Origin: Mesoplasma seiffertii ATCC 49495 | Lineage (GTDB): Bacteria; Bacillota_I; Bacilli_A; Mycoplasmatales; Mycoplasmataceae | Assembly (NCBI RefSeq): GCF_000518725.1 | Contig: NZ_KI912486.1 | Location: 64,916 to 128,915 of the forward strand | DNA length: 64,000 nt | Direction of reading: 5' to 3' | Shown here: piece by piece, positions 17,843 through 46,241 of the stretch | How positions within the stretch are numbered: the first letter of the stretch is position 1 | Layout: every line of letters begins with the position of its first letter | The notes under the pieces: generated by a model | The model's database searches: none | What the model was told of the DNA's origin: nothing | The model's input: the letters and a program-made list of their open reading frames with translations, nothing else | Position numbers and translations under genes: made by a program

Positions 17843-18865
17843 CTATTTCATTTTTTCTTTTAAAGTTTTTGACGGTTTAAATTTAACTCCAGTTTGTGCA
17901 GGAATATTAATTGATTCACCAGTCAATGGATTACGTGACACTTTTGATGGTTTTGCAATTGTTACTAATTTTCCAAATCCAGAAATTGTTACTTCTTCAG
18001 ATTCTTCTAATCTTCTTTGCATTGTCGCAAACACATCATCAACCACAGCCTTAACACTTTTTTTAGTCATATCTGGGTTGTTTGCAATAAGCTCTTCTAA
18101 AATCATTTTTTTAGAAACTTGTTCACGCTTAATTCGTGGTGCTCTTGGAGCTTTAGTTTTAACTGGTTCTTCAGTTAAAACTTCTTCACTAACTAAAGCT
18201 TCTTCCACTACAACTGGGGTTTCAGCTTTTTTGCTAGCTACTTTTCTTTGCGGTTTTTGTGCTTTTTCTTCAACTTTTTGTTCAATCACTTCTTCGCTAT
18301 CCACAACTTCAATGATCGCTTCATCTTTCTGAACTTCTTCAACGACAACTTCCTCAACTACTTCTTCTACAACAGGTTCTTCAACAACTTCTTGAGTTGC
18401 TGTTATTTCATTGCTATTACTAAGTGGTGTTTCTTCGTGTTTCCCACAAACACAATTAATATTAAAAATTGGTGAAAAATCTTTAAATTCACATTTTGAG
18501 TCCTCAGCAATTGCTTCATCACTTTGTTCAATTACGATTTCATCATTAGCTGTATAAATTGCAACAATTGATAAAATGATTCATAATAAAAATGTAGATG
18601 GTGCTACGATTAATAAAAAGATATTCGCAATTAAATCCACTCTAAACGCGATTCCGTTATTTCAGTATTCTAAGCTAAAGTTAATTACTCCTGCTGGTCC
18701 AAAGAAAAAGTCTTTTGTAAGTCCTTCTTCTTGGTTAAATACTGGGTTTAAAACTTTAATCAACATTGCTACAGCAAATGTTGTCAAGAAAAGAGTTAAA
18801 AAGAAAACCAATCAATAATTGATCGCTCTTCTATTACCCTTTTTTTCTACTACAGTTATTTCCAT
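17843..18865 (-). CDS. Membrane-anchored HU-family DNA-binding protein
   Basis: The 340-residue protein is a fusion. Residues 1-13 are basic and two membrane helices follow (about 16-38 and 78-104), with an outside loop between them. Residues 105-240 form a hydrophilic, acidic linker full of EE and VV, with C125, C138, C140 and H143 clustered. Residues 245-340 are a complete HU/IHF domain with the DNA-arm motif RNPLTGESINIPA. The positive-inside rule places N-terminus, linker and HU domain in the cytoplasm, so the protein could tether DNA to the membrane. The full frame needs TGA as Trp at four codons. A GTG at 18304 would give only the linker end and HU domain, but the ATG at 18865 has a GGAGGC ribosome-binding site. 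A decayed paralogue lies at 45370-46241. Confidence 0.88.
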
Positions 18866-18923
18866 AATGCCTCCATATAATAATTAATTATATTTCTAAA
18901 AACATTAAAAGTCATTATAATCT

Positions 18924-44511: not shown

Positions 44512-44550
44512 CAAGACAAATTTCTCATTTTGAGATAGTTTGTCTTGTTT
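44512..44550 (+). terminator. Terminator of the ABC-F gene
   Basis: CAAGACAAA and TTTGTCTTG form the outer stem and TCTCA/TGAGA the inner one, followed by a T-rich end, 22 bases after the stop codon. Confidence 0.78.
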
Positions 44551-45220
44551 TCACTTTGATGAAACCAAGTATCTTCTCGAAGAGAATTCCGCAGAGACAA
44601 TTTTGGAAATGTCAGAAGAAGATATTCTTCAAAAAATTGCAGAAAAAGTTTCTGGAATTGATATAAATGATTTGGAAACAGACCTTATGAGCAACAATTC
44701 AGCTAAGATTATTGCAAAAACTGATTCAGAAAAATACAAAAATACTGTGAATGTAATCTTCACAATAAAGGCAGAACTTAATAGCATTATTTCTAATGAA
44801 GATCGTTACTTAGGAATTTATGATCAAAATCCTACCGAAGAAGATATTAAAAAATACTTAATTAATAACGGTTATGATTTTATATGAAACGATGTAGAAA
44901 TTACTTTTAATAGCGATTCTCAAACAGCAACTGTAAAAGCAAAAGATAAAAGTATTTTATATTATGGATCTGTTGATTTTTCATACTTTGTACGTAAGGA
45001 TCTACAAGAAGTTATCACTTCAACAAATCTCGAAATTAGTGGTCCCCTGACAATAAATTCCTATTTAGAAGTTCTAAAAGAGCAAAATCCAGAACTTGAT
45101 ATAAACTCAATGACAATTATTGATATAACTCGTGATTATTCTCAAAAAGAAAGCCCTTATCGATATTCAGCTACAGTTGTGCCTACAAATAATAATGTTT
45201 ATTATGGAGCAAAAAAATAA
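44540..45220 (+). pseudogene. Surface-protein remnant lacking its 5' end
   Basis: About 226 codons are open (TGA as Trp) but have no ATG, ribosome-binding site or signal peptide, and the frame starts inside the preceding gene's terminator. The translation is hydrophilic and repetitive, with two units of the pattern 'leucine-rich helix, then a beta strand of the type V-N-V-I-F-T-I-K or V-E-I-T-F-N', as in mollicute lipoprotein repeats. It ends YYGAKK. A C-terminal membrane anchor from the same former gene may survive at 45280-45360 in another frame. Confidence 0.55.
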
Positions 45221-45279
45221 CCCTATTAACTAATGAAAAAAATAAATAACTTTCATAGCAAGACAAGAATAGCTTAGTA

Positions 45280-45360
45280 ATGATTAGTTTATCAATTTTA
45301 GCAGGAATCACAGTTGCAGGAATCACAATTGGTTTGGTATTTTTAAAGAAAAGAAAGTAG
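45280..45360 (+). pseudogene. Detached C-terminal membrane-anchor piece
   Basis: Twenty-six codons encode one hydrophobic helix followed by LKKRK, the usual shape of a C-terminal surface-protein anchor. It lies 60 bases after the surface-protein remnant, in a different frame. An extra A in the A7 run at about 45212-45218 would bring the two into one frame, still with stops between them. It is unlikely to be a gene on its own. Confidence 0.4.
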
Positions 45361-45369
45361 TGGAATAGT

Positions 45370-45699
45370 ATGAAAATAAATTTTAATAAAAAATATCGAA
45401 TTTGACTTTTGCCAATACTTTTTGCTCTTACAATTTTGTTAATTGTTATTTTAAAATTACTTAACCAATATTATTATGGAACTTCAAAATGATTTCTTTT
45501 AGTTGAAGATTATATAACAAGCGATCTACAGGAACAGTGATTCACTGGCCAAAACATCATTCAAACTTTCTTATTAGGACCAATAGGATTAAAATCAATA
45601 ATTTATTTTAATCTATAGCAAAATGAACTATTTATGATGCCCGTTTTTTGGGACTTTTTAATTAACTGATTATTGATTTTCGCATTACTATTTTTTTAA
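45370..45699 (+). pseudogene. Membrane half of a decayed membrane-anchored HU gene
   Basis: From ATG 45370 the frame encodes a basic start, a membrane helix, then a loop with LLGPIG, until a TAG at 45616. The same frame continues as Q-N-E-L-F-M-M-P and a second helix, and stops at TAA 45697 in a run of seven T. With one more T the frame would run straight into the HU-domain gene at 45807. The layout (helix, loop with G-P-x-G, helix, linker, HU) matches the intact protein at 17843-18865 (GPAG there). I read it as the 5' half of a broken paralogue. Confidence 0.65.
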
Positions 45700-45806
45700 T
45701 TATTACTATCAAAATACTAGTTTTCAATAGACTTTACAAAAGTCAGATAAAAGTTTCCAAATCTTATGTTCCTTTAAAATTAGTTGTAAATAATTTAAAT
45801 GAAGAA

Positions 45807-46241
45807 ATGGATAATCAAATAACCAATATTAGATATCGAAAAGAAACAAAAGTTGAACATAAAGTTATTAACAAAAAACATTATCAAAAAATAACAAAGC
45901 AAAATCTGCTGAAACACTTACATGAATCTTTTCCAAATGAAACTAAAAAATCTCTTAAATTGACATTTGAAAAAGTCTTTTCAATTTTTGAAGAAAAATT
46001 AAGCAAAAGAGAAGAAATTACAATTGCTAATTTCGGAAAACTAATGCTAATTAGAACAGATCCTCATGAAAAAATTAATCCTTTAACAGGAGAACCAGTT
46101 TTTGTTCCTGCGCAAAATACTATTAAGTTTAAAACATCAAAGTATTTGCGTGAAAAAATGACAAATACTAAATGAACTGGAAAGTATAAAGCCAAGCGTA
46201 AGGTTTTTAAAACTATAACAATTGAAGAAAAAGTCAAATAA
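45807..46241 (+). CDS. HU-family DNA-binding protein (C-terminal half of a broken paralogue)
   Basis: From ATG 45807 the gene encodes 144 residues: a basic lead of about 25, then an HU domain (about 26-123) with INPLTGEPVFVPAQ at the DNA-binding arm, then a 20-residue basic tail rich in K. The upstream frame is open back to 45666 without a start codon or good ribosome-binding site, and encodes a hydrophobic helix end that fits the membrane half at 45370-45699. Usual HU arms begin R-N-P; here the Arg is Ile. TGA at 46173 is Trp. It may still yield a soluble basic HU protein, but weakly. Confidence 0.6.

Follow-up and report, generated by a model that had tools for sequence, protein, structure and literature searches.

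What is a DNA-binding HU domain doing at the end of a membrane protein in a wall-less bacterium? The question is raised by a gene in a 64,000-nucleotide stretch of the Mesoplasma seiffertii ATCC 49495 genome, referred to here as the window (Table 1). Its 340-amino-acid product begins with two predicted membrane helices and ends in a complete HU domain, with a disordered linker between them.

Reading frame and domain architecture

The minus-strand frame comprises 340 codons, from an ATG at position 18865 to a stop codon ending at 17843, and it is open only if TGA is read as tryptophan, at W18, W68, and W95. The motif GGAGG, located 4 nt before this ATG, was also found just 5' of the homologue starts in three other species of the window genus; no GGAGG-type ribosome-binding site precedes the internal GTG at 18304. 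The initial annotation had described a single fused frame and had named two ways in which the fusion could be illusory, namely, that HU is made alone from GTG 18304 or that two separate genes were joined by a sequencing error. Both are refuted by conserved full-length homologues: the same fusion with the same GGAGG-preceded start recurs in independent genomes, and the N-terminal part is under selection. The 340-codon frame is genuine, and the probability of an artefact is practically nil. A scan for promoters and terminators returned sites that were no more numerous than expected by chance.

Table 1. Coordinates of the membrane-HU gene, its parts, and a second copy, in window positions
Feature	Position	Strand	Remarks
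Gene for predicted membrane-anchored HU protein	17843..18865	minus	340 aa, genetic code 4
Ribosome-binding site GGAGG	18870..18874	minus	4 nt before the ATG of the membrane-HU gene
Predicted transmembrane helix 1 (residues 12-39)	18749..18832	minus	Hydropathy and AlphaFold2 helix
Predicted outside loop (residues 40-71), conserved GPxG motif	18653..18748	minus	K/R-poor in 26 homologues
Predicted transmembrane helix 2 (residues 72-106), motif D-x-x-A-N-I-x-L-L	18548..18652	minus	Hydropathy, AlphaFold2
Low-complexity, mostly acidic linker (residues 107-245)	18131..18547	minus	Predicted disordered at 109-241; pN/pS 0.56
Cys/His cluster C125, C138, C140, H143, next to the membrane	18437..18493	minus	Genus specific, pattern not conserved
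HU DNA-binding domain (residues 251-340)	17846..18115	minus	PF00216, fold match 5l8z
RNPLTGE arm tip (residues 311-317), DNA-intercalating proline P313	17915..17935	minus	Sequence, alignment A1
Second, broken membrane-HU paralogue	45370..46241	plus	In-frame TAG at 45616, frame change near 45697

The arrangement of two N-terminal helices and a complete C-terminal HU domain, as first annotated, was borne out by hydropathy, by AlphaFold2, and by the Pfam HU family PF00216. Hydropathy placed the membrane helices at residues 18-36 and 82-100, and AlphaFold2 modeled helices at residues 12-39 and 72-106, disorder at residues 109-241 (pLDDT, ~30), and a confident HU fold (pLDDT, ~90); the input alignment was shallow (4 rows) and the pTM was 0.29, so the model speaks to the individual parts and not to the domain arrangement or dimer state. 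Conservation at the membrane extends beyond the loop motif to K37 and N40, where helix 1 ends. In 26 homologous proteins, the K/R fraction fell from 0.30 in the N-terminal tail to 0.06 in the loop and rose again to 0.21 after helix 2, and because of this bias the HU domain is predicted to be cytoplasmic, in support of the topology originally proposed. The window genus has no K/R enrichment in the segment that follows helix 2, and there the N-tail is the only source of the topology signal. As originally supposed, the N-terminal part belongs to no known family: neither Pfam nor NCBIfam contains a curated family for the membrane module or for the fusion, and the AmaP-type two-helix anchor NF033218 scored ~10 to 12 bits against a cutoff of 55. 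The linker, of about 135 residues, had been called acidic, and this holds for its net charge (37 D/E versus 13 K/R over residues 103-240) but not for the stretch just before the HU domain, which is slightly basic.

The HU domain matched PF00216 over residues 251-339 (E value of 1e-24; 86.9 bits versus a cutoff of 22.4), and its best Foldseek match in the PDB was 5l8z, the HU of Spiroplasma melliferum (E value of 6e-8). The domain has a net charge of +6 and has kept the arm tip, in which N312 and P313 are invariant in alignment A1. The complete fold and arm tip are common to the window protein and ordinary HU, but ordinary HU is a small soluble chain of ~90 residues, whereas the window protein adds a two-helix module and a long linker and falls in a separate HU clade. 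At 340 residues, with two predicted membrane helices, it is therefore an HU-domain protein and not an ordinary HU.

Family extent, paralogues, and selection

On sequence evidence, the putative membrane-anchored HU proteins are a real, conserved family with several paralogues per genome, which the initial annotation had not recognized. Each of the four window-genus genomes contains the complete fusion, with homologues in G003, Mesoplasma photuris ATCC 49581, and Acholeplasma (now Tullyiplasma) multilocale ATCC 49900; the identities of these three other full-length proteins to the window protein were 75%, 43%, and 36% (alignment A1). The same helix-loop-helix-linker-HU order was found in all seven genomes of the genus to which Mesoplasma grammopterae belongs, and a third genus contributed one more genome. 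In total, 12 genomes contained 26 intact copies. In a class-wide sample of 395 genomes, full-length fusions occurred only in g1, g2, and g5 among the matches listed, from which rare fusions may be missing. The search for matching fusions in mollicutes thus succeeded with the full-length protein, in three genera, whereas a contig scan with the N-terminal part alone found no relatives; unlike that scan, whole-protein alignment brought up the named relatives. The second HU genes of eight Spiroplasma-type genomes (g8 and g11) encode no membrane helices. Separately, two neighboring longer HU-domain proteins of g10 (L044 and L045, in G012 and G019) are also without membrane helices, unlike the membrane-HU clade.

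In M. photuris, Mesoplasma, and G004, mnmG is followed directly by one membrane-HU copy. The two genes are separated by a short gene and purA-purB in A. multilocale, and in the window the membrane-HU gene comes directly after purB. Given these mnmG/purB neighborhoods, the copies in the three genera were taken as positional orthologues. Profile comparison linked the window membrane module to that of the Mesoplasma b-type paralogues (probability of 95%; E value of 2e-8) and the mnmG-type module to the d-type module (E value of 1e-24), with a weak link between these two sets. In a tree of HU domains, all fusions and one soluble paralogue formed a single, moderately supported clade (94/78) that excluded ordinary HU, and ordinary soluble HU has also been kept in all 12 fusion-bearing genomes.

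The window contains a second membrane-HU copy that is broken (Table 1), although its HU part is still open (45807-46241); its relative in G003 is intact and encodes 308 amino acids (L049). The plus-strand gene just before it (44540-45345) also looks broken; its product resembles a repeat protein that faces outward and has a helix at its C terminus, and in Mesoplasma the d-type membrane-HU gene comes directly after a gene for such a surface protein (L036 and L055). Some proteins carry the membrane module but no HU, as in the genes upstream of argS in M. photuris, A. multilocale, and G022, and a small domain, DGS...MTK(K/R)E(L/I), accompanies the membrane module alone, HU alone, or both. Such sharing of parts among these proteins suggests that HU and the membrane module are functionally linked. 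The small domain was seen in 18 of 60 family genomes, once in the window's own (G000:C1:60046); examples are at L154:291-1094, L043:455-1873, L050:892-1539, and L031:634-1455. Two further HU-type proteins were observed: one in G007 (L158:562-1602), with a diverged HU-like domain at the N terminus followed by one membrane helix and an outside part, and a soluble 184-amino-acid coiled-coil paralogue (G000:C1:246132-246503; L048:956-1510), with an HU domain 72% identical to that of the window protein, which is a possible dimer partner.

Purifying selection acts on both the membrane module and the HU domain, and the linker is evolving fast: the pN/pS values between the window gene and its G003 homologue were 0.20, 0.13, and 0.56, respectively. 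Low values at the ends and a higher value between them are as expected for two functional ends joined by a spacer.

Proposed tethering and alternative roles

Since an HU domain is joined to a membrane anchor, the protein probably fastens the chromosome to the membrane. The favored reading, to which we assign a probability of about 0.7 from sequence features, is that the integral membrane HU serves as a flexible tether between the membrane and nucleoid DNA. HU works as a dimer and binds and bends DNA with little sequence preference. We infer membrane insertion, dimerization, DNA binding, and tethering along the following lines: the two-helix hairpin would anchor the protein in the membrane with its N and C termini both on the cytoplasmic side, the long disordered linker would let the HU domain reach into the nucleoid, and the domain would dimerize and act on DNA as HU does. 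Many copies would then provide flexible chromosome-membrane ties beside ordinary soluble HU. Two observations count against the tether: the b-type paralogues of Mesoplasma have diverged strongly and no longer have the proline at the arm tip, and PMC8637272 cites a mycoplasma HU homologue that does not bind DNA non-specifically.

Two other functions can be imagined for the same architecture. The anchored HU might pair with soluble HU-type partners, such as the 184-residue coiled-coil paralogue, and remove them from the nucleoid. The dimeric habit of HU and the existence of that paralogue, which has no membrane helix, fit this idea, but the paralogue was seen in G000 only and the conserved DNA-contacting arm favors DNA binding, which makes such a trap improbable. 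Alternatively, the outside loop or the Cys/His cluster might detect a signal and alter DNA binding, and the conserved GPxG motif of the loop would agree with this. So would the cysteines, at least three of which are found close to the membrane in each of the four window-genus species, compared with a cysteine background of 0.87% in ten long window proteins. The cluster had initially been read as a possible metal or redox site; its residues are indeed present, but that role is doubtful, as the cysteine spacing differs between species of the genus, G003, the nearest relative, has Asn in place of H143, and no Cys lies beside the membrane in the 22 remaining homologues. The cluster would be a genus-level feature at most, and with a loop that is short and contains no recognized ligand-binding domain, a sensor is very improbable.

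A more specific proposal starts from the tether and holds that membrane HU retains the origin region at the membrane, substituting in part for the lost ParA-ParB system; this is possible but unlikely. ParB_N was found in none of the 18 genomes of g1-g5 and in all 42 genomes of g6-g12, and a chromosomal ParA gene adjoining ParB showed the same split, a few weaker or unpaired ParA-type matches remaining in g1-g5. All 12 fusion genomes fall in g1-g5 and are without ParB, and the fusion was not found in any of the 42 ParB genomes. SMC has been kept (14 of 14 genomes tested), and the mnmG-linked copy lies ~14 to 20 kb from dnaA in Mesoplasma, ~19 kb in G004, and, for three of the window-genus genomes, 48 to 79 kb. 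However, mnmG is often near the origin, so the proximity to dnaA may simply follow from that of mnmG, and we know of no origin specificity of HU; position lends weak support to origin-specific tethering. The clades are nested, with effectively one loss and one gain, and the overlap of ParB loss and fusion is a single clade-level coincidence, so a partition role can be put forward only hypothetically. Moreover, the six genomes of g3 and g4 have neither ParB nor the fusion, so ParB loss does not require the fusion, and JCVI-Syn3A is also without ParABS (PMC13142093). It is similarly speculative that the family arose after the loss of ParABS from interchangeable modules (the two-helix membrane module, the HU domain, and the small DGS...MTKKEL domain) as a non-specific chromosome-membrane anchor helping to place and segregate the chromosome in a wall-less cell. 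Any partition role is an extension clearly less certain than the simple tether.

Relation to known systems and significance

Membrane-linked proteins of the HU superfamily were reportedly predicted in Bacteroidetes by Burroughs et al. in 2017, among them CCDC81-like HU proteins with membrane and SPOR parts that were predicted to act in chromosome partition. The likeness lies in an HU-superfamily domain tied to the membrane and a proposed role at the chromosome-membrane interface, but the window protein belongs to another HU clade and phylum, has a different membrane part, and carries a canonical DNA-binding arm. It scored 13.3 bits against a cutoff of 35 for PF18175, the profile of the prokaryotic CCDC81-like HU domains, and no SPOR or similar envelope domain was found by Pfam in the window protein. 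The HU-HIG profile PF18291 did pass its cutoff (31.2 versus 26.2 bits), but PF00216 fits far better (86.9 bits), and none of the HU-HIG partner domains (wHTH, Ig, or Gly-rich motif) was found by Pfam in the window protein. Noc, SlmA, RacA, and the Streptomyces protein SepG are membrane-bound nucleoid organizers, most of which act at specific sites; they link DNA to the membrane or division site in an analogous way, but they are unrelated to the window protein, and HU binding has little specificity. What is new here is thus the membrane module and its fusion to HU, both without a curated family, membrane-linked HU as such having reportedly been predicted already in Bacteroidetes.

A search of open-licence papers, in which short terms such as HU search badly, found nothing relevant on membrane-anchored HU. 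The main texts of the Mesoplasma florum essentiality and proteome studies (PMC5893858 and PMC7745072) contain no mention of HU or DNA-binding proteins. DNA-membrane association in a mycoplasma was described by Quinlan and Maniloff in 1972, as cited in PMC8637272.

How the chromosome is held and separated in wall-less bacteria without ParABS is an open question, and a conserved family of putative membrane-bound HU proteins is a concrete candidate for the link between DNA and membrane. The fusion clade includes Mesoplasma, a genus with laboratory tools. The membrane-HU family would widen the known range of HU protein functions.
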